From the NCBI GenBank assembly GCA_007693595.1, contig REDI01000032.1:49302-113301 (forward strand): DNA of 64,000 nucleotides, read 5' to 3'. Of the stretch, positions 4,172 through 49,975 are shown in pieces. The notes beneath the pieces were generated by a model. The model worked only from the letters and a program-made list of their open reading frames with translations, had not been told where the DNA came from and did no database searches. A program made the translations under genes and the position numbers. Numbering within the stretch: the stretch's first letter is position 1; each line of letters opens with the position of its first letter. This DNA comes from Deltaproteobacteria bacterium (GTDB taxonomy: Bacteria; Myxococcota_A; UBA796; GCA-2862545).

Positions 4172-6451
4172 TCACTCCACCCCGCCCCAGGGAGAATCGG
4201 GTTCTTCGTTGGCAGGAGGGGGGGGATCGTCGGCGGGGGGCGCAGGAGGTTCCTGCGAAGGTTCCCCCTCCTCGTCGGGGGGAGGGGAGTCGTCGTCGGG
4301 TCGACGCCTGGGCTCGTCGGGAGCGAGCGGTGGAGGGGATCCGGGCGCGGTCTGTGGATCCATGCGCTTATCGGGGGCGGTCTTGGCCGGACCGGGCTCC
4401 CGGCGCTCGACGCCCTCGGGCCGAGGGAGGGCTTCGCGCCCCCCCTTGGGGAAGGCCAAGGGGCTGCCATCGGGTACGGGACCTGCGGGGGGCAGGTATT
4501 CGGGTCGGGCGATCTCGGACTCAGGCACCCGCACGATCGCGGTCTCGCCGGCCTTGACCTCGATGGAGACGGTGTAGTCGAGCCCGCGGAGCTCATCGAA
4601 GATCCGCACCTCGCGCGCGCCGGGCTCGACGATCTTCCCTCGGAAGGGGGCTCTGGGCGAGGCGAGCTCACCGTCGATCTCGACCTTGGTGAAGGGGCGA
4701 TCGGTCGGCAGGAGGACCGAGAGGGCGGCGATGTCGGCGCCCAGGCTCAGGTCGACCTCTTCGGTGACCGGATCCTGCTGGAGGATGCGGAACTCGACGC
4801 GCCGGTTGCGCTCGCGCCCCCGCTCGGTGAGGTTCGTGTCGATGGGCTGATCCATTCCGTAGCCTTCGGAGCTCAGCCGATCGCGGTCGATGCCGCGGTC
4901 GAGCAGGTAGCGCTTGACGGCCGCGGCCCGCTGGTTCGAGAGGTTTCGGTTGAAGGAAGGGTTGCCGACGTTGTCGGTGTGCCCCGCGATCTCGACCTGG
5001 CGGATCTGGGGGTATCGCTGCAGCGCGGCGACCACGTCGTCGAGGAGGGGGAAGGAGGACCGATCGACGGTGGCCCGACCTGTCTGGAACATGACCTTCT
5101 CGGTGATCTTGATTTGATCACCCTGCACGAAGGCGCGCGTGGGACAGCCGCTGGAGGTCTCGACGGGGTCGCCCTCGGAGCGCGGCTCGTCGGGGCAGGC
5201 GTCCCGCCAGTCGGGCACGCCGTCGCCGTCGCGATCGGGGCAGCCCTGGGTCTCGGGGGGACCGGGGTCGAGCGGGCACTGGTCGAGGGCGTCGGTCAGG
5301 CCATCGCCATCGGCGTCGGGGCAGCCCATCTGCTCGTCGACTCCGGGGGTGTCGGGGCAGGCGTCGTAGATGTCCAGGATGCCGTCTTGGTCGTTGTCGG
5401 GATCGGGGCAGCCGTCGGTGTCTTCGAAGCCGTCGAAGTCCTCCGGGTCGTTCGGGCAGAGATCGTCGACGTCGAGGAAGGTGTCGCCGTCGTTGTCGAG
5501 CTCGGGGCAGCCATCATAGTCTTGGAAGCCGTCGAAGTCTTCGGGATCGTGGGGGCAGAGGTCGTGCTTGTCGGGGATGCCGTCGCCGTCGCTGTCTTTG
5601 ACGCGGGGTGCGTAGGTCAGACCCGCCTGGACCCGCCACTGAGGCGACCCGACCCCCTGGAACGTGCCGCGACCTGCGGAGACCGACAGCCCGAGCCCGT
5701 CGTCGCGGACGACCTGCGCGAAGGCGCTCCCCCAGCCGATGGTGTTTCGCCGCCCCGGGGCGTTCGAGATCCCGAACCGATGCTCGATGTCGGCGCCGAT
5801 CCGAAGGTTCGGATCGAGATGGACCCATGCGCCCAGCGCTCCATCGAGGCTACTGCCCAGGGCGACGTTCTCGTAGACGTCGCCTCGGCTCAGGGTGAAA
5901 CCCAGGTTGGCTGCGTAGCCGAAGCGCTCCGCGAGCTCGCCGCCCACCGCGCCCCGCAGGCGGCCGTGCCCCCCGCGGCCCAGGTAAGCGGAGCGTGGCC
6001 CGGTCGGAAGCCCCAAGGTGGGCACGACGCTGACCCCGAAGCTGCCTTGGTCGTTCTCGAAGAGGCGCACGTTGGCCTGGACCAGGGTGTCGCCTAAGGC
6101 GGGCCCCTGGAAGGCCTCGGAGGTCGTGCCGGTGCGGGCGAAAAAGTAGATGGGCGCGATCAGCTCGACCCGGAGGCGGTCTTCGAAGGTCCAGCCGCCG
6201 TAAAAGGCCGTGTTGAAGGCCTCGGGCGCCAGGGAGCGGGTGCGCCCGTCGGCGAAACGGTAGGTCGCCATGTTCCGGGCGATGGTGGCGGTCGCCCCCA
6301 GGGACAGCCCTTCGTTGGTCAGGGCGGGGGACTCGGTCGAGGGGGTGCCCGCCTTGTGGGGCATAGAACCGCTAGGAGAGAAGGGATCGATGTCGACCGC
6401 CACCGCGGTCGTGGCCCAGCCGATGATGCCCAAGAGGTAGAGGCGACGCAT
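4172..6451 (-). CDS. TSP3-repeat OmpA-family outer-membrane protein with Pro-rich tail
   Basis: 759 residues. A signal peptide (MRRLYLLGIIGWATTAVAVD) is followed by about 260 residues of beta-strand-rich sequence with alternating aromatic ends, probably an outer-membrane barrel. Thrombospondin type 3 Ca-binding repeats run from about residue 283 to 437 (DSDGDGIPDKHDLCP and six more, rich in DxDxDG and Cys). The OmpA/MotB peptidoglycan-binding domain is at about 455-560 (HTDNVG, RAAAVKRYL, SEGYGMDQP, RRVEF). A short beta domain follows (about 590-650), then a Pro/Asp/Glu-rich tail of about 100 residues. It should anchor the outer membrane to the cell wall. An extra domain and acidic proline tail after the OmpA domain are less usual. 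Confidence 0.9.
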   Translation of the reverse strand: MRRLYLLGIIGWATTAVAVDIDPFSPSGSMPHKAGTPSTESPALTNEGLSLGATATIARNMATYRFADGRTRSLAPEAFNTAFYGGWTFEDRLRVELIAPIYFFARTGTTSEAFQGPALGDTLVQANVRLFENDQGSFGVSVVPTLGLPTGPRSAYLGRGGHGRLRGAVGGELAERFGYAANLGFTLSRGDVYENVALGSSLDGALGAWVHLDPNLRIGADIEHRFGISNAPGRRNTIGWGSAFAQVVRDDGLGLSVSAGRGTFQGVGSPQWRVQAGLTYAPRVKDSDGDGIPDKHDLCPHDPEDFDGFQDYDGCPELDNDGDTFLDVDDLCPNDPEDFDGFEDTDGCPDPDNDQDGILDIYDACPDTPGVDEQMGCPDADGDGLTDALDQCPLDPGPPETQGCPDRDGDGVPDWRDACPDEPRSEGDPVETSSGCPTRAFVQGDQIKITEKVMFQTGRATVDRSSFPLLDDVVAALQRYPQIRQVEIAGHTDNVGNPSFNRNLSNQRAAAVKRYLLDRGIDRDRLSSEGYGMDQPIDTNLTERGRERNRRVEFRILQQDPVTEEVDLSLGADIAALSVLLPTDRPFTKVEIDGELASPRAPFRGKIVEPGAREVRIFDELRGLDYTVSIEVKAGETAIVRVPESEIARPEYLPPAGPVPDGSPLAFPKGGREALPRPEGVERREPGPAKTAPDKRMDPQTAPGSPPPLAPDEPRRRPDDDSPPPDEEGEPSQEPPAPPADDPPPPANEEPDSPWGGVE

Positions 6452-6612
6452 GAACAGTCTCCCAGCGGCGCTGCGCCCAGCGGCGCGAGCGGAGGAAGTG
6501 TAGCCAGCCCAGGCCCATAATGCACCGCGAGTTGAGACAGGAGGCGAAAATCCCGGAGATCGCGGAGCCGGGGCCCTGGCGTCGAGGAGTCGACGCCTAT
6601 CTAGAAAGCCGG

Positions 6613-39115: not shown

Positions 39116-40339
39116 TTAACCTCGCACGATCCGGGTCTTGGTGACCAGGGTGCGCAGGGCGTCGACCGCCCCTTCGGTCGTGGGGTGTGCCACGATCACC
39201 CAGCCTTCCCCTTCATAACCCTCGGAGATGGGCTGACCGACCCGAGGAAGCTGGGCATCGACCCATCGATCCCCCAAGGCCTGGCGCGCTTCCTGCAAGC
39301 CGCGGACCTCGCGCACGACCCGCCCCGCCCCTTGCCCACGGAGGAAGGCGCAGCCGACCGCCAGCTTGCGAGGGGCTACCTGCCAGGTCTGATGCACCAT
39401 GAGCTTGGCCCAGGCAGCCCAGAGGTCGACCCCGTGAGCGATGCCGTTCATGCGCATGATGTTCACCCCCGGAGGCCGGGCCCCGACCTCGCCGATCACG
39501 ACGCTGCCATCGCTGCGACGAAACCACTCCATGTGCGAGAGGCCGTCGACCATTCCAAGGGCCTGGAGCGCGGCGGCGTTGAGCGTCTTGAAGGCCGTGA
39601 CGTGGGGATCGTCGGTCTCCCGGGGGAGGAGCACGCAGTATTGCATCCAGGGGTTCTCGATCACCGAGAGTGGCCCCGGAAGGTAGGCTGTGGAGCTGGA
39701 CCAGACCGGCTCCCCTCCGATCGAGACCGTCTCGAAGGTGAACTCGGATCCGGTGACGAACTCTTCGGCTTGGATCGGGGCAGAGAAAGAGGGGACCAGC
39801 CGGTTGAGCGCCCGGTAGAGCTCGGGCTCGGAGCTCGCTCGCTGGGTGTTGCGCGATCCGAGCCCATCGACGGGCTTGAGCACGATGGGGTAGCCCACCT
39901 CGGCGGCGAAGTGTCGGGCATCGGAGGCGCTGCGGATGAGGGCTTGCCGCGCCACGGGCAGTCCGGCGTCTCGCAGGGTGGACTTCATGAGGTTCTTGTC
40001 GCGAAAGCGTCGGGCTGTCGCCTCGGTCATGCCGGGCACACCGCACGCGTCGCGGGCCTGAGCCAGCGGGACCTGGAGCTGCTCGAGGTACCCGAGGAGC
40101 CGATCGACCTGCCCCCACTCTCGCTGGAAGGCGCGGGTCGCCATCGCGAGCTGCCCAGGATCGAGGGGATCATCGACCCGGAAGTGACCGACGGAGCGGT
40201 CGCGGAGGGAAGGAGGGACGCGCTCTTGAGGCTCCGCCGAGATCAGGCCCAACCGAACCCCCTCGAGGTCGGAAAGAGCGCGCACGCAGTGGATCATGTT
40301 GGCCCCGAAGTACGGGGCGACGAAGACGACGTTGAGCAT
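39116..40339 (-). CDS. ATP-grasp enzyme (carboxylate-amine ligase-like)
   Basis: 407 residues. The N-terminal pre-ATP-grasp fold begins MLNVVFVAPYFGANMI. ATP-grasp motifs are RRFRDKNLMKSTLRDAGLPVAR, GYPIVLKPVDGLGSRNTQR, and IQAEEFVTGSEFTFETV. SDGSVVIGEVGARPPGVNI has the Mg-binding Glu. The enzyme is expected to form an amide or peptide-like bond through an acyl phosphate. The substrates are unknown. It is possibly co-transcribed with the lipoprotein gene 46 bases upstream. Confidence 0.85.
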   Translation of the reverse strand: MLNVVFVAPYFGANMIHCVRALSDLEGVRLGLISAEPQERVPPSLRDRSVGHFRVDDPLDPGQLAMATRAFQREWGQVDRLLGYLEQLQVPLAQARDACGVPGMTEATARRFRDKNLMKSTLRDAGLPVARQALIRSASDARHFAAEVGYPIVLKPVDGLGSRNTQRASSEPELYRALNRLVPSFSAPIQAEEFVTGSEFTFETVSIGGEPVWSSSTAYLPGPLSVIENPWMQYCVLLPRETDDPHVTAFKTLNAAALQALGMVDGLSHMEWFRRSDGSVVIGEVGARPPGVNIMRMNGIAHGVDLWAAWAKLMVHQTWQVAPRKLAVGCAFLRGQGAGRVVREVRGLQEARQALGDRWVDAQLPRVGQPISEGYEGEGWVIVAHPTTEGAVDALRTLVTKTRIVRG

Positions 40340-41622: not shown

Positions 41623-42207
41623 ATGTCCCGCACCGCGACCGTCGAACGCCAGACGGGTGAGACCTCGATCCGCTGCACCCTGACCCTCGAAGGCAGCGGC
41701 GAGGTCGATGTCCGCACGGGCCTTGGCATGCTGGACCACCTCTTGACGGCCCTCGCCCGGCACGCGGGGTTCGATCTCGCGCTTCGAGCCGAGGGCGACC
41801 TGTGGGTGGACGACCATCACACCGCCGAAGACTGCTCCTTGGTCCTCGGCATGGCCCTCGACCGCGCCCTGGGGGAGCGGCGGGGGGTGGTGCGGTTCGG
41901 CTCGGCCTACGCTCCGCTCGACGAGGCCTTGGCACGGGCGGTCGTCGATCTCTCGGGCCGCCCCTGGGCCGAGGTCGAGCTCGACACCGTGCGCGAGAAG
42001 CTGGGCGAGCTCGCCTGCGAGAACATGCGTCATGTCCTGATCTCCCTCGCCATGGCGAGCCGCACGACCCTGCACGTCGACGTGCTCCGGGGCCGCAACG
42101 ATCACCACAAGGTCGAAGCGGCCTTCAAGGCGACAGCGCTGGCCCTTCGGGAGGCGGTCAGGGTACGCGGCGGCGCCATCCCGAGCACCAAGGGCGTGCT
42201 CACATGA
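41623..42207 (+). CDS. hisB: Imidazoleglycerol-phosphate dehydratase
   Basis: 194 residues, the usual monofunctional HisB size. Mn-binding motifs are MLDHLLTALARHAGFD, DDHHTAEDCSLVLG and DHHKVEAAFKATA. It dehydrates imidazoleglycerol phosphate, the sixth step of histidine synthesis. TTGGAG precedes the ATG. Its stop overlaps the start of hisH (ATGA). This is the first gene of the operon; hisG and hisC are not in the window. Confidence 0.96.
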   Translation: MSRTATVERQTGETSIRCTLTLEGSGEVDVRTGLGMLDHLLTALARHAGFDLALRAEGDLWVDDHHTAEDCSLVLGMALDRALGERRGVVRFGSAYAPLDEALARAVVDLSGRPWAEVELDTVREKLGELACENMRHVLISLAMASRTTLHVDVLRGRNDHHKVEAAFKATALALREAVRVRGGAIPSTKGVLT

Positions 42208-42809
42208 GCGAAGCGTTGGTCGTCCCCACGGGAACCGCCAACCTGGCGAGCGTGCTCGCGGGCCTGCGGCGCGCCGGGCTCGAGCCAGAGCTCAGCGTGG
42301 ATCCCGCCGCCATCGCGGCCGCCCCAATCGTGGTGCTCCCCGGTGTAGGGCACTTCAAGCCCGCTATCGAGGGGCTGCGCGAAGCGGGCTTGGTGCAGCC
42401 TCTGCGGGATCGGGTGCGCGCCGAGAAGCCGCTGCTCGCGATCTGTCTGGGCCTTCAGGTGCTCGCCGAGGGCAGCGATGAGGCCCCAGGGGTTGAGGGG
42501 CTCGGGGTCTTGCCTGGCCACGTGCGCCGCTTCCCCGAGGGGGTCCGCTGCCCCCACCTCGGGTGGACCTATGTGCAGGCCCCGGAGCATTCGCGCCTGT
42601 TGCGCTCGGGCTTCGCGAACTTCGCCCACTCCTATCGGCTGTCTGTGGCTCCGGCGGGCTGGCACGCCGCCATCGCCGATCACGAGGGCCCCTTCGTCGC
42701 GGCCGTCGAGCGTGGGCCGATCCTGGCCTGTCAGCTCCACCCCGAACTCTCGGGGCAGTGGGGCGCCGATCTCCTCGCGCGGTGGGTCGCGCTGTCTAAG
42801 GAGTCCTGA
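42204..42809 (+). CDS. hisH: Imidazoleglycerol-phosphate synthase, glutaminase subunit
   Basis: 201 residues of the class I glutamine amidotransferase family. Nucleophile Cys81 is in LLAICLGLQVLAEGSDE, with His179 and Glu181 in ACQLHPELSG. The usual YGMGN loop is TGTANLASV here, a mild variation. It releases ammonia from glutamine for HisF, which is encoded next, with only one base between stop and start. Confidence 0.94.
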   Translation: MSEALVVPTGTANLASVLAGLRRAGLEPELSVDPAAIAAAPIVVLPGVGHFKPAIEGLREAGLVQPLRDRVRAEKPLLAICLGLQVLAEGSDEAPGVEGLGVLPGHVRRFPEGVRCPHLGWTYVQAPEHSRLLRSGFANFAHSYRLSVAPAGWHAAIADHEGPFVAAVERGPILACQLHPELSGQWGADLLARWVALSKES

Positions 42810-42810
42810 A

Positions 42811-43587
42811 ATGCCGACGATCCGAGTGGTGCCATGTCTCGACGTGCGCGATGGCCGGGTGGTGAAAGGGATCCGCTTCCAAGGCCTGCGCGACGCCGGA
42901 GATCCTGCGGAGCGGGCGGCGATCTACGCCGAGCATGGGGCGGACGAGCTGGTCCTGCTCGACGTCTCGGCGACCCCCCAAGAGCGCGCTCACGGCCTTG
43001 AAACGGTGCGACAGGTGCGACAGGTGCTCCCGGTGCCGCTGACGGTCGGCGGGGGAGTGCGGTCCCTGGCCGACGCCGAGCGTCTGCTCGAGGCGGGCGC
43101 CGACAAGGTCGCGGTGAACACCGCGGCCGTGGCCCGACCCGCCTTGCTCGAGGAGCTCGCGGCACGCTTCGGGGTGCAGTGTGTCGTGCTCGCCTGCGAT
43201 GCCCGCCGGATCGGGTCAGGCTGGGAGGTCGTGGTGCGTTCCGGCACCACCTCCGGCGCCCCCGATGCGGTGGCCTGGGCCGCCGAGGCCGCTCAGCGGG
43301 GGGCCGGCGAGATCCTGCTCACATCCTGGGATCGCGACGGAACTCGGGAGGGCTACGATCTCGATCTCATTCGGGCCGTTCGGGCGGTGGTCGACGTGCC
43401 TATCGTCGCCTCCGGCGGAGCAGACCACCCCGAGCACCTGATCGAGGCGGTTCACGCTGGCGCCGACGCGGTCCTCGCAGCCTCGATCTTTCACGACGGC
43501 GATCGCACCGTCGACGAGGTCAAGCAGGTGATGGCTCGAGCCGGGGTCGCGGTCCGTCCGCCAGGCCTGGATCAGCAAGCCCCTTAG
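42811..43587 (+). CDS. hisF: Imidazoleglycerol-phosphate synthase, cyclase subunit
   Basis: 258 residues. Catalytic Asp11 (VPCLDVRDGRVVKG) and Asp130 (VLACDARR) are present, with KVAVNTAA, LTSWDRDGTREGYDLDLIR and ASGGA at phosphate-binding loops. It makes imidazoleglycerol phosphate and AICAR. AAGGAG lies before the ATG. A longer upstream frame (from 42478) is overlap with hisH and is rejected. Confidence 0.97.
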   Translation: MPTIRVVPCLDVRDGRVVKGIRFQGLRDAGDPAERAAIYAEHGADELVLLDVSATPQERAHGLETVRQVRQVLPVPLTVGGGVRSLADAERLLEAGADKVAVNTAAVARPALLEELAARFGVQCVVLACDARRIGSGWEVVVRSGTTSGAPDAVAWAAEAAQRGAGEILLTSWDRDGTREGYDLDLIRAVRAVVDVPIVASGGADHPEHLIEAVHAGADAVLAASIFHDGDRTVDEVKQVMARAGVAVRPPGLDQQAP

Positions 43588-43606: not shown

Positions 43607-46144
43607 ATGATACTTCCGAGCATCGATCTTCAGGGCGGCCACGCCGTGCAGCTCGTCGGTGGCAAGGATCTCGCCCTCGACGCGGGCGATCCTCTCCTCA
43701 TCGCCGAGCGCTTCGCCGTCGCGGGAGAGCTGTCGATCGTCGATCTCGACGCGGCCTTGGGACAGGGCGACAACAGCGAGGTCATCGAAGCGCTCCTTCG
43801 TCGCTACCGCTGTCGGATCGGCGGGGGGATCCGCAGCGTCGAGGCGGCCCTGCGCTGGCTCGACGCGGGCGCCCACCAGATCGTGCTCGGCACAGCGGCC
43901 CGGCCTGAGGTGCTCAAACACCTCCCTGCAGACCGAGTGATCGCCGCCCTCGACGCCGTAGACGGCGAGGTGGTGGTCGAGGGCTGGCGCACCCGCACCG
44001 GGCGAGGGATCGCCGAGGTCATGGCCGAGCTGCGCCCCTTCGTCTCTGGCTTCCTCGTCACCTTCGTCGAGAAGGAGGGGCGGCTGGGCGGCACGTCCAT
44101 GGAGCGGGTCGAGCCGCTGATCCAGGCCGCTCAGGGCGCGCGGCTCACCATCGCGGGCGGCGTCACCACCGCAGCTGAGGTCGCCGCCCTCGATCGTCTG
44201 GGGGCCGACGCCCAGGTCGGCATGGCGCTCTATACGGGGCGCATGACCCTGGCGGAGGCCTTGTGGGCTCCGCTGCGCAGCGATCGCCCCGACGGACTGG
44301 TGCCGACCGTGATCACCGATGAGCACGGGGGCGCGCTCGGCCTCGCCTACTCGAGCGAGCAGAGCTTCCTGCGGGCGGTCCAGACTCGGCGGGGCGTCTA
44401 TTGGTCGCGCTCTCGGCAGCAGCTCTGGGAGAAGGGCGCCACGAGCGGCGCAACCCAGACCCTCTTGCGAGTGGGGCTCGACTGCGACCGGGACGCGCTG
44501 CGATTCGTCGTGCGTCAGGGAGAGCCCGGTTTCTGTCACCTCGGCACCCGAACCTGTTGGGGGAGCGACGGCGGCCTGCCCCGCCTCGACCGCACCCTCG
44601 CTGCGCGCCGCGCCGAGGCCCCGGAAGGTAGTTATACGCGGCGTTTATTCGATGACCCTGCGCTGCTGGCCGCGAAGCTCCGCGAGGAGACCGAGGAGCT
44701 GATCGAGGCTGCGACGAAGCCGGAGATCACGCACGAGGCCGCGGATCTGATTTTCTTTGCCCTGACACGCGCCCACGCGGCGGGCGTCGATCTCGCGGCC
44801 ATCGGCGCCGAGCTCGACCGTCGAACCCTGCGCGTGCGGCGCCGAGGGGGGCACCGCAAGGAGGAGGGAGGCGAGCCGACCACCGGGCCGCTCCTCCGGC
44901 GGATCGAGCCGAAGGATCTGCCCGATCTCCAGCGCGAGCCTGTCGACGACGAGACCCTCAGGGGAGCCAAGGCGCTGCTCGACGAGGTCCGTCGCGGCGG
45001 CGTCCCCGCCGTGCGGGCCCTCGCCGAGCGCTTCGGGGACCGCGCCCCCCGCGAGCCCCTCCTGCTGGGCCCCGAGGTGCTGAAGTCAGCCCTCGAGGCC
45101 CTGCCCGATACCGATCGAGGCGTACTGGAGCGTGTCGCGGGTCGGATCCGACGCTTCGCCGAGGCGCGACGCGCCGACTGCCACGACACCTCCATCGAGG
45201 TCGCCGGGGGTCGGGCGGGGGTGCGACTCCAGCCCGTCCAGCGCGCTGGCTGCTACGCGCCCGGCGGGCGCTACCCGCTCCCTTCCAGCGTGCTCATGAC
45301 GGCGATCACCGCCCGCGCGGCGGGGGTGGCCGAGGTCTACGTCGCCTCACCCCGCCCCTCCGAGGTCACCCTGGCCGCGGCCGCCTTGGCGGGGGCCAAC
45401 GGGGTGCTCGCGGTCGGGGGCGTGCAGGCGATCGGCGCCCTGGCCTTCGGACTGGGCGTCCCTCGCTGCGACGCGATCGTCGGCCCTGGCAACCGCTGGG
45501 TGACCGCCGCGAAGCAGCTCGTCTCGGGCCGGGTGGCCATCGACATGCTGGCCGGCCCCTCCGAGCTGCTCGTCATCGCGGACGCCCACGCGGACCCCGA
45601 CGCGATCGCCGCGGATCTGCTCGCTCAGGCCGAGCACGACCCCGACGCGGGCCCGATGCTGTGCAGCGACAGCGCCGCCCTGATCGAAGCGGTCGAGGCC
45701 GCGCTGCACGAGCAGCTCGCCACCTTGCCCACCGCCGACGTAGCCCGTCGCGCCCTTCGCAGGCACGGCTTCGCGGTGAAGGTCGATGATCTCGCCGCCG
45801 CCTGCGTAGTCGCCAACCAGATCGCCCCCGAGCACCTCGCGCTGCACGTGGCTGACCCGCGGGCGCTCCAGCCTGTCCTGCTGAGCTACGGGGCGCTCTT
45901 TCTTGGGGAGCAGGCCGCTGAGGTGCTCGGCGACTACGGCGCCGGCCCCAACCACGTGCTGCCCACCGGCGGCAGCGCTCGCGCGGTCGGAGCCCTCGAT
46001 GTGTTGACCTTCCTGCGCCCCCAGGGCTCGCTGGATCTCCACACATCCACCCCCCAGACCCGCGCCGTGGCGCGGGACGCCGCGGCCCTCGCCCACCTCG
46101 AGGGCCTCGAAGCGCACGCCCGCGCCGCGGAGCGCAGGGGGTAG
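43607..46144 (+). CDS. hisAIED: HisA-HisI-HisE-HisD tetrafunctional histidine biosynthesis fusion
   Basis: 845 residues in one uninterrupted frame, 19 bases after hisF. HisA: about 1-222, with PSIDLQGG (Asp7), ALDAVDG...GW (Asp116) and AGGVTT. HisI cyclohydrolase: about 231-320, with YWSRSR, LDCDRD (Asp292/294/296) and Cys310/Cys317. HisE pyrophosphohydrolase: about 342-412, with SYTRRLF, EETEEL and EAADL. HisD dehydrogenase: about 433-845, with GPGNRWVTAAK, SELLVIAD, QAEHD, QIAPEHL, GDYGAGPNHVLPT and EGLEAH. All main catalytic or metal residues appear intact. It would carry out steps 2, 3, 4 and the last two oxidations. From memory, the order and several segments of HisI-HisE-HisD match fungal His4. 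The HisA part resembles eukaryotic His6 (FLVTFVEKEG in place of bacterial TDISRDGT). Confidence 0.94.
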   Translation: MILPSIDLQGGHAVQLVGGKDLALDAGDPLLIAERFAVAGELSIVDLDAALGQGDNSEVIEALLRRYRCRIGGGIRSVEAALRWLDAGAHQIVLGTAARPEVLKHLPADRVIAALDAVDGEVVVEGWRTRTGRGIAEVMAELRPFVSGFLVTFVEKEGRLGGTSMERVEPLIQAAQGARLTIAGGVTTAAEVAALDRLGADAQVGMALYTGRMTLAEALWAPLRSDRPDGLVPTVITDEHGGALGLAYSSEQSFLRAVQTRRGVYWSRSRQQLWEKGATSGATQTLLRVGLDCDRDALRFVVRQGEPGFCHLGTRTCWGSDGGLPRLDRTLAARRAEAPEGSYTRRLFDDPALLAAKLREETEELIEAATKPEITHEAADLIFFALTRAHAAGVDLAAIGAELDRRTLRVRRRGGHRKEEGGEPTTGPLLRRIEPKDLPDLQREPVDDETLRGAKALLDEVRRGGVPAVRALAERFGDRAPREPLLLGPEVLKSALEALPDTDRGVLERVAGRIRRFAEARRADCHDTSIEVAGGRAGVRLQPVQRAGCYAPGGRYPLPSSVLMTAITARAAGVAEVYVASPRPSEVTLAAAALAGANGVLAVGGVQAIGALAFGLGVPRCDAIVGPGNRWVTAAKQLVSGRVAIDMLAGPSELLVIADAHADPDAIAADLLAQAEHDPDAGPMLCSDSAALIEAVEAALHEQLATLPTADVARRALRRHGFAVKVDDLAAACVVANQIAPEHLALHVADPRALQPVLLSYGALFLGEQAAEVLGDYGAGPNHVLPTGGSARAVGALDVLTFLRPQGSLDLHTSTPQTRAVARDAAALAHLEGLEAHARAAERRG

Positions 46145-47888: not shown

Positions 47889-48593
47889 TCAGTCGCCGTC
47901 TTCGGGTCGATCCAGGCGGGAGTGCCAGCGCGCCGCGGTGATCACGGGCTCCAGGCTCAGTCGGCCGACGATCTGCTCCAAGATCTCGTCGGCAGATCCC
48001 TTGCACACGATGTCCGCCCCGACCTCGACCTCGCCGGGCTCGTCGAGGTCCCGGCTCTGCATGCTGGTGAGGTGGACATGGGTCGGGCCGAAGCTGTGGA
48101 GCACCAGCGCCCGAACGAAGGCCTCTCGGTCTTCGGGGCACCTCACGGTGACCCGATAGTGATGTTCGACCTCGGTGGCCATGGCCCCCTTGGGATCGAT
48201 GCGGCGGGCCAGGGGGCGGATCGCGATGTTCACCGCGAGCACGAGCCCCGCAGCCACCACCGCGCCGATCCAGTTGCCTGATCCTGCGAAGAGCCCAACC
48301 GCCGCCGCACACCAGAGCGTCGCGGCGGTGTTCAGGCCCCGCACTCGAACCCCCTCGCGCATGATGACGCCTGCACCGATGAAGCCGATGCCGGAGACGA
48401 CCTGGGCCGCGACCCGCGTAGGGCTCATCTCGCCGTCGATGAGGCTGGAGAAGGCGACGAAGCTCGCGGCGCCGAGCGAAACCAGAGCGTTGGTCCGCAG
48501 GCCGGCCATGCGCTGACGGACCTGCCTCTCGATGCCGATCGTGGCCCCAAGGAGGACCGCGACACAGAGGTTGAGGAAGATCTCGAAGGTCAT
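47889..48593 (-). CDS. mgtC: MgtC/SapB-family membrane protein
   Basis: 234 residues. The N-terminal domain (about 1-135) has the MgtC signature: LLGATIGIERQ, AGLRTNALVSLGAA, VVSGIGFIGAGVIMREG and LNTAATLW. The C-terminal 100 residues form an ACT-like cytosolic domain. The ATG at 48593 overlaps the mgtE stop as ATGA, so it is translated with the transporter; a GTG at 48602 is possible. MgtC proteins help growth in low Mg and modulate ATP synthase and virulence in pathogens. Confidence 0.9.
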   Translation of the reverse strand: MTFEIFLNLCVAVLLGATIGIERQVRQRMAGLRTNALVSLGAASFVAFSSLIDGEMSPTRVAAQVVSGIGFIGAGVIMREGVRVRGLNTAATLWCAAAVGLFAGSGNWIGAVVAAGLVLAVNIAIRPLARRIDPKGAMATEVEHHYRVTVRCPEDREAFVRALVLHSFGPTHVHLTSMQSRDLDEPGEVEVGADIVCKGSADEILEQIVGRLSLEPVITAARWHSRLDRPEDGD

Positions 48594-49975
48594 GGTGCCC
48601 ACCCTCGTGGAAGGAGAGGCCCGACCGTGCCCAGGAGCACACTGGCCAGACCGAAATAGATAAGGACGCCGAGCGCGTCGCAGATCGACGTGACGAGGGG
48701 GGTGCTCGCCGCAGCCGGATCGAGACGGAGCTGGCGGAGGACGAAGGGGAGCATGGCGCCGACGAGGCTACCGATCAGCACGCATCCCGCCATGCTCAGT
48801 GAGACGACGATCGCGATCTCGATCCCTCCTCGGATCAGCCCCAACAGGCTGACAGCCAGCGCCATCGAGCCGCCGAGCATGCTGGCAACCCCGACCTCGC
48901 GGAGCAACAGCCGCCACCAATCCCGCATCTTCACCTCCCCGACGGCGAGCGAGCGGATCGTCAGCGTAGCCGCCTGAGAACCTGCGTTACCCCCCGAGTC
49001 GATGAGCAGCGGCAAGAAGACGACGAGCGCCGCGTTCTTGGCGATGAGATCCTCGAAAGCGAGGATGCCCGCACCCGAGAAGAGGTTGGCCGCGATCAGC
49101 ACGAGTAGCCAGGTGATGCGCTTTCGGTAGAGCACGCTCAGGGGCGCCTTGAGCAGCGAGGTCACGCCACGTCCCACCGGCGTCACGCCCCCCAGCCGAA
49201 GCAGGCGCACCGCCTCGCGAAGCTCCTGCGCGTCTGAGGCGTCGTCGTGGGTCACGGCCCCCAGCAGCGACCCTTCGTGATCGACGACCGGGATCGCGAC
49301 CATGTCATAGTCCCGGATCAGGCGGATGGCGTCGTCGAAGGGGTCCCGGGGCTGGACATGGATGGGGTGGGGCCGGCACAGCTCACCCAGGACCGCTCGA
49401 TCGTCCGAGAGGAGCAGATCGCGCACCGACAGCGTGCCCACCAGTCGACGACCTTCGCCAAGAATGAAGAGGGTGTAGATGTCTTCGGCGTCACGGGCGT
49501 GAGCGCGGACCCGGGGAAGGGCGTCGGCGACGGTAAGCGCCGACGGCAGGGTCGCGACCTTGGTGGTCATCAGGGAGCCGACGGTCCCTTCGGGATAGGA
49601 AGAGAGCTTCTTCAGCGTGTCTCGATCGACGCGATCGAGCGCCTGGAGCACGGTCTCTTGGCGATCCTCAGGCAGCCGAAGCCAGACGTCCGCCTGTTCG
49701 TCGGGAGACATGCATGCGAGCAGCTCCCCGAGCTCTCCGTCGTTGAGCCGGGCCGCGACCGCGTCTTGGATCTCGGGCTCGAGATAGCCGAAGATCCCAC
49801 CGCGCCGATCGGGACGAATGGCGCGGAGGAGCGACGCCACGGCGGGGGTCTCGAGCTCCGACATCGACCGCGCGATCGCCGCGGGGTGGCAGGACCGGAG
49901 GATCGAGCGCAGAAGCCCGGGGTCAGCGCTGGTCGCGGCGACCCTGAGCGAGAAGACCAGCTCTTGAGGCTTCAT
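48590..49975 (-). CDS. mgtE: MgtE-type magnesium channel
   Basis: 461 residues. The N-terminal helical domain (about 1-130; PEDRQETVLQALD) and two CBS motifs (GTVGSLMTTKVATLP, GTLSVRDLLLSD, VAIPVVDHEGSLLGAVTHDD) sense Mg. Five membrane segments follow, with PLLIDSGGNAGSQAATLTIRSLAVGEV and DPAAASTPLVTSICDALGVLIYF lining the pore. GGAGG precedes the ATG. It is coupled to mgtC. No Mg riboswitch was recognised in the 288 bases upstream. Confidence 0.95.
   Translation of the reverse strand: MKPQELVFSLRVAATSADPGLLRSILRSCHPAAIARSMSELETPAVASLLRAIRPDRRGGIFGYLEPEIQDAVAARLNDGELGELLACMSPDEQADVWLRLPEDRQETVLQALDRVDRDTLKKLSSYPEGTVGSLMTTKVATLPSALTVADALPRVRAHARDAEDIYTLFILGEGRRLVGTLSVRDLLLSDDRAVLGELCRPHPIHVQPRDPFDDAIRLIRDYDMVAIPVVDHEGSLLGAVTHDDASDAQELREAVRLLRLGGVTPVGRGVTSLLKAPLSVLYRKRITWLLVLIAANLFSGAGILAFEDLIAKNAALVVFLPLLIDSGGNAGSQAATLTIRSLAVGEVKMRDWWRLLLREVGVASMLGGSMALAVSLLGLIRGGIEIAIVVSLSMAGCVLIGSLVGAMLPFVLRQLRLDPAAASTPLVTSICDALGVLIYFGLASVLLGTVGPLLPRGWAP

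Follow-up and report, generated by a model that had tools for sequence, protein, structure and literature searches.

The fusion gene and its surroundings

The window, by which we mean the whole analysed stretch of 64,000 nucleotides from a Deltaproteobacteria bacterium (contig REDI01000032.1), contains a gene whose product carries HisA, HisI, HisE and HisD domains in a single chain. The frame runs from an ATG at 43607 to a TAG at 46142-46144 and encodes 845 amino acids with no internal stop. hisB, hisH and hisF are located upstream on the same strand (Table 1). The flanking genes, which encode an ATP-grasp protein (39116-40339, minus strand) and a CBS-domain magnesium transporter of the MgtE type (48590-49975, minus strand), show nothing unusual.

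Table 1. Histidine genes of the window and domains of the fusion protein
Feature	Position in window	Strand	Remarks
hisB (IGPD domain)	41635..42207, approximate 5' end	+	PF00475, 1.3e-56
hisH (glutamine amidotransferase)	42201..42809, approximate 5' end	+	PF00117, 3.8e-11; between hisB and hisF
hisF	42808..43587	+	TIGR00735, 304.3 bits, above cut-off of 294.55
HisA-HisI-HisE-HisD fusion gene	43607..46144	+	845 codons and stop
HisA domain	43607..44272	+	residues 1-222; PF00977 at 1-213; Asp7, Gly72-74, Asp116, Gly184-185
HisI (PRA-CH) domain	44342..44560	+	residues 246-318; PF01502
HisE (PRA-PH) domain	44579..44824	+	residues 325-406; PF01503
HisD domain	44951..46138	+	residues 449-844; PF00815 (Histidinol_dh)

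All four Pfam domains score above their curated cut-offs, with 121.9 bits for HisA (spanning positions 1-227 of the 228 in the model), 89.6 bits for PRA-CH and 70.1 bits for PRA-PH, in the order HisI then HisE. HisD also passes TIGR00069 (396.9 bits; cut-off 243.8). The HisA domain is divergent, reaching 135.5 bits with the equivalog model TIGR00007 against a curated cut-off of 228.95, so this model by itself would not call it HisA; we therefore term it HisA-like from its Pfam domain and its residues. The protein contains Asp7, Asp116, DCDRD, EETEEL, QAEHD, PEH and EGLEAH. Asp7 and Asp116, which from the HisA literature we take to be the catalytic pair, and Gly72-74 and Gly184-185, presumably the substrate-site glycines, are common to every intact fusion-type HisA domain in our alignment (121 of 121). 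Like canonical HisA, the domain thus belongs to the PF00977 barrel family and has both aspartates and the glycine motifs, but it is shorter, at about 222 residues compared to 243-256 for the listed PDB HisA chains; its best PDB relative is 4axk (6.8e-17). The single 845-codon frame, the four domains and the catalytic residues named in the initial annotation are all confirmed.

Because the source genome is a draft (97 contigs, 98.4% complete), the frame might in principle reflect an assembly error or frameshift that joined separate genes. However, the frame is uninterrupted, and a protein search returned 287 homologues, of which the 120 listed, the window's own included, all have the same four Pfam domains. 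The fusion is also in one frame in a genome of the same genus (G296), one of four such genomes among the 63 of the order. This layout argues against an assembly joint, a possible fault that the initial annotation had raised, and we consider an artefact almost certainly the wrong explanation.

In the histidine pathway, HisE catalyzes step 2, HisI step 3, HisA step 4, and HisD the last two steps. Full-length matches to PF00977 in the draft genome were limited to HisF and the fusion gene; one further match covered 48 positions. HisD was found in a single place, within the fusion gene. HisG is present on another contig, adjoining the best HisC-like match, which scores below the hisC cut-off. The pathway looks complete, with HisA and HisD supplied, as far as the draft shows, by the fusion alone. 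The genome has HisG, a HisC-like gene, HisB, HisH, HisF and HisD, and no other full-length HisA was found in it; we infer from this that the domain is a working ProFAR isomerase. The chain is predicted to carry out steps 2, 3 and 4 in succession as well as the last two, and its product would be passed to HisF-HisH, encoded just upstream.

Distribution of the fusion among bacteria

A search of named genomes gave 592 candidate stretches, with a relative encoded in at least 580, from which we retained the 80 best. By record name, these loci belong to eight bacterial phyla: Planctomycetota (25), Pseudomonadota (17), Myxococcota (16), Gemmatimonadota (6), Spirochaetota (2), Armatimonadota, Sumerlaeota and Actinomycetota (1 each), with 11 lacking a phylum; single assignments may be wrong, since most of the loci come from metagenome bins. 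HisA and HisIE share one frame in 79 of the 80. HisD is part of that frame in only 8 of the 79, while a hisD frame is directly downstream in at least 48, HisD is in the fetched stretch but outside our adjacency rule in 10, and no HisD was found within the fetched stretch in 13. In three loci (L030, L040 and L044), the fetched stretch contains a hisD of a distant type, 34-37% identical to the window's HisD, that does not adjoin the fusion.

Within the window's order, 25 of 63 genomes matched P0001, and inspection of the rows, two of which were verified frame by frame, sorted them into 4 three-way fusions (G000, G014, G068 and G296, the source genome included), 14 two-way fusions, 2 fragmentary or unclear cases and 5 divergent ones. 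Across the phylum, TIGR00007 matched 201 of 282 genomes, with the cut-off passed in only 75. From the counts in the best 80 loci and in the window's order, the two-way HisA-HisIE gene looks like the older unit, to which HisD was joined locally.

Two loci differ from the others. In L080 (Brucepastera parasyntrophica; frame at 5992, plus strand), HisA and HisIE are in one frame, and this fusion is apparently convergent, its HisIE grouping with stand-alone HisIE. In L014 (a Pirellulaceae MAG; frame at 6587, plus strand), the one exception to the shared frame, HisIE follows an unrecognised N-terminus of 172 residues that has no match to the HisA HMM; it contains a segment, WLNTGAS, resembling the conserved fungal patch, and a canonical HisA (L171) is encoded separately in the genome. 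L014 may be a third instance of HisA decay, this one in a bacterium.

The N-terminus of fungal His4 resembles fusion-type HisA

The order HisI-HisE-HisD is also that of fungal HIS4. As described in the accessible part of Fani et al. 2007 (PMC1963479), the N-terminal region of HIS4 comprises 160-220 residues of unknown function without a conserved domain, a psi-blast with this region gave no significant match outside HIS4, a prokaryotic HIS4-like protein was not found, and the model proposed was a joining of hisIE to hisD in fungi.

The initial annotation had suggested that this region may be a decayed HisA. We assembled 120 yeast His4 proteins from a search with S. cerevisiae His4 and a further 102 proteins, for the most part identifiable as fungal from their names or their similarity, which include chytrids, Mucoromycota, Basidiobolus and Glomus. 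One of these (P0277) is labelled Quercus suber, but was counted as fungal and retained, as it is probably from a fungus in a plant sample. Three of 221 non-intact proteins had fewer than 90 residues before HisIE and were dropped, leaving 218. When these N-termini were searched with an HMM of 121 intact fusion-type HisA domains, matches were obtained to a protist-like protein, P0244 (5.9e-10), and to the chytrid proteins P0289 (1.7e-5) and P0319 (6.2e-4). Eleven of the 218 fell below 0.01, compared to a best value of 0.7 among 1308 decoys, so the majority are individually not significant. When the window's HisA was compared by BLASTP with three fungal His4 proteins, no match fell in the N-terminus.

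For profile-profile comparison, the final 12 residues ahead of HisIE were trimmed, and the 120 N-termini of at least 160 residues were used, leaving out 98 shorter ones. These 120 matched fusion-type HisA with a score of 48.2 (E 1.5e-6, 107 columns), whereas 200 column shuffles gave a mean of 11.9 (s.d. 2.1) and a maximum of 20.5. With 12 early-branching fungi, the score rose to 80.9 (E 8.4e-12) over 166 columns starting at the first residue, at 26% identity. The signal appeared once early-branching fungi were added to the comparison; budding yeasts alone gave a weak match (P 0.014, 46 columns).

HisF is a paralogue of HisA, and fungi have a separate HisA, HIS6. The fungal N-terminus might be a barrel of other origin, such as a HIS6 duplicate, a copy of HisF or another TIM barrel, that was fused to HisIE independently. 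That a HisA-HisIE fusion seems to have arisen convergently in Brucepastera is in keeping with this, as are partial profile matches to HisF (134 sequences), which scored 34.3 over 23 columns with the 12 early fungi and 36.3 over 71 columns with the 120 fungal N-termini. However, canonical HisA (30 sequences) scored only 22.7 and 20.0 with the same two sets, and the order of fusion-type HisA, HisF and canonical HisA indicates that the fungal N-termini match fusion-type HisA best, by a wide margin in the early fungi. Protist-like P0244 likewise gave 69.1, 14.4 and 29.7 with fusion-type HisA, canonical HisA and HisF, respectively; a slice of fungal HisD gave 16.9, 13.4 and 21.0.

Predicted structures agree in part with the profiles. 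Structural comparison of a model of a chytrid His4 N-terminus found the HisA barrel fold, with a Z of 17.2 for HisA at 20% identity and a near tie of 17.1 for HisF at 14%, a tie that an origin from HisF could also account for. The model of the 142-residue S. cerevisiae N-terminus has four full strand-helix units and remnants; the 50 structural matches listed for it were filled by HisD, ALDH-fold and HisIE/HisI/HisE proteins, with HisA not among them. The profile comparison and the search for a TIM barrel that the initial annotation had proposed thus succeed with early-branching fungi and the chytrid model, respectively; with budding yeasts the profile match is weak. As the adjoining fungal HisIE is also of the fusion type (see below), we regard a barrel of other origin as very unlikely. 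By sequence profile and by predicted chytrid fold, the N-terminus of fungal His4 is homologous to the window's HisA, as had been proposed.

Motifs of the HisA site are lost in the decayed domains

To describe the decay, the 121 intact domains and 105 decayed ones were placed in a single alignment. Both catalytic aspartates are kept in all of the intact domains but in only 6 of the 105 decayed ones, and neither Gly72-74 nor Gly184-185, each present in 121 of 121 intact domains, is kept in any decayed domain. In addition, three stretches (11-29, 118-132 and 153-161) consist of 72-93% gaps in the decayed domains and are ungapped in the intact ones. Loss of the aspartate pair, the glycine motifs and these stretches predicts loss of isomerase activity, and the HisA barrel of fungal His4 is likely catalytically dead. 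Nevertheless, since Asp7 is kept in 81 of the 105 decayed domains and both aspartates in 6, this loss may not hold everywhere. Arg110 is present in every decayed domain (105 of 105) and Gly88 in 104, a conserved patch that hints at a structural duty.

Fusion proteins of protist type

Seven of the proteins are protist-like, a label that for six of them rests on listings without an organism name. HisA is intact in four. By Pfam, these four (P0051, P0084, P0241 and P0078, the last from a metagenome contig) have HisA-IE-D, either with HisH and HisF or with aminotransferase and HAD domains. P0051, a 1351-aa MMETSP transcript by its EukProt name, has the domains HisH, HisF, HisA, HisI, HisE and HisD. 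It resembles, as far as the published description goes, the 1682-aa protein of Acanthamoeba, for which the accessible text of Rice et al. 2018 (PMC6029752) reports that one predicted chain combines the isomerase (HisA) activity with those of HisI, HisE and HisD; unlike the window's protein, that of Acanthamoeba also carries IGP synthase and HisG. In that text, its origin is left open, and neither bacterial fusions nor the fungal N-terminus are connected with it.

P0084, P0078 and P0241 (about 1470-1500 aa) combine HisA-IE-D with two further domains, one a HisC-like aminotransferase and the other HAD phosphatase-like, a layout that would put much of the histidine pathway into one protein and of which we met no description in those parts of the literature that were examined. 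P0244 (1482 aa, metagenome contig) has a layout like that of P0084, but its HisA is decayed, with 186 residues. In P0242, from the amoebozoan Arcella intermedia, 98 residues are left, and in P0256, which may be truncated, 21 are left. In the HisIE tree, these three form one group (100/86) apart from the fungi; decay of HisA therefore probably happened twice.

The two halves of fungal His4 have different relatives

Trees were built for the domains from hand-picked parts of the fetched sequences. In the HisIE tree (88 rows, plant HisIE left out), all fusion-type HisIE except that of L080 are split from stand-alone bacterial HisIE by a branch of 100/99; bacterial and plant bifunctional HisIE do share with the window's protein the arrangement of HisI then HisE in one chain. 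The fungi (100/97) and the fungi together with the protists (95/76) form groups in this tree, within the fusion type. AU tests did not reject either the bacterial fusions as one group without eukaryotes (p-AU 0.318) or the fungi branching as sister to the remaining fusion-type rows (p-AU 0.271), and thus the nesting and the direction of transfer depend on the HisA+HisIE tree and on how widely the fusion occurs in bacteria. In the HisA+HisIE tree (56 rows, with only two canonical species and L080 as outgroup), from which the fungi were left out because their HisA is too decayed, the protists (98/85) are nested inside the bacterial fusions, as sister to L050 (Sumerlaeota by name) and L064 (95/86).

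The first AU result would also be compatible with a fusion that arose in eukaryotes and then passed to bacteria. However, both this nesting and the names of eight bacterial phyla among the best 80 loci speak against such a course, which we judge unlikely. Instead, the HisA-HisIE half of fungal His4 most likely reached eukaryotes from a bacterium.

HisD behaves differently. In a careful tree of 51 rows, the fungi (100/99) are sister to plant HisD (100/99), represented by one sequence, and the protist fusions (100/97) lie inside a clade of bacterial HisD that is fused to or adjacent to the fusion (100/100). A tree of 75 rows made by the quick method only agrees, placing fungi with the plant and protists with the bacterial fusions. 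AU tests rejected fungal HisD held with the fusion-type clade (p-AU 2.3e-7) or with the protist fusions alone (p 3.8e-9). This rules out fungal His4 as a whole being nearest to the window's protein, and because of the position of HisD we do not file that protein as HIS4. The suggestion in the initial annotation that this lineage or a relative may resemble the donor or ancestor of His4 holds for the HisIE half, which groups with the bacterial family, and fails for the HisD half. Nor is the window's lineage the nearest relative, given that the protist fusions adjoin L050 and L064 and that the three-way fusion is local to 4 of the 63 genomes of the order.

Since fungal HisD falls outside the fusion clade, His4 would not be a whole-gene descendant of a three-way fusion unless its HisD was replaced later. 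Such a replacement, in which His4 descended whole from a HisA-IE-D fusion and only the HisD sequence changed, would account for the same domain order in fungi, and HisIE is followed by a fusion-type HisD in each of the seven protist-like proteins in the 75-row tree and in the six present in the 51-row tree; four of the seven have an intact HisA. The other course, in which a plant-like hisD was joined to a two-way HisA-IE gene in the fungal line, does not need the extra event of swapping a domain inside a fused gene, and among the bacterial loci seen, two-way fusions are the more frequent. We give replacement a real but somewhat less than even chance.

Discussion

We are confident that the gene in the window encodes one intact HisA-HisI-HisE-HisD chain and that the front half of His4 is a homologue of the HisA-HisIE family, with HisA likely dead there, and was probably acquired from bacteria and joined to a plant-like HisD. 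Fungal HIS4 is like the window's protein in its I-E-D order, in a HisIE of the same clade and in its homologous N-terminal region, and unlike it in its decayed HisA and its HisD of a plant-like clade. The window's protein should work like a HIS4. Judging from the trees, its three-way fusion shows the intact form of such a front half, but is not the direct ancestor.

In the course that we propose, a HisA-HisIE gene, with HisD attached or not, would have entered a eukaryotic ancestor; some protists would have retained an intact HisA, and the fungi and a group including Arcella would have lost the HisA site, with the emptied barrel retained in fungi as a likely structural scaffold. A more specific version, to which we give close to an even chance, is that a bacterial HisA-HisIE gene was captured once, before Amoebozoa and fungi diverged, and provided the front half of HIS4, that fungi and arcellinid amoebae emptied the HisA site in parallel, and that the dead fungal barrel serves the adjacent active sites as a pseudoenzyme scaffold.

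Our literature search, with most subscription papers and all preprints outside its range, found no account of the His4 N-terminus as HisA or of bacterial HisA-HisIE fusions, and the accessible parts of PMC8305728 and PMC2705460 describe neither. A 2023 review (PMC10138114), in the part available, gives seven fusing his genes, with hisA not included. With our results, hisA joins the his genes for which bacterial fusions are known; a eukaryotic case had already come from Acanthamoeba in 2018.

HIS4 is a textbook yeast gene. Our analysis provides its N-terminal region with an origin and a predicted fold, and accounts for why the region is poorly conserved. His4 is then chimeric, with a HisA-HisIE half of bacterial type and a HisD that is plant-like, which would explain why fungi were found with plants in the 2007 HisD tree and not in the HisIE tree. 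The role of the His4 N-terminus is now directly testable in yeast.
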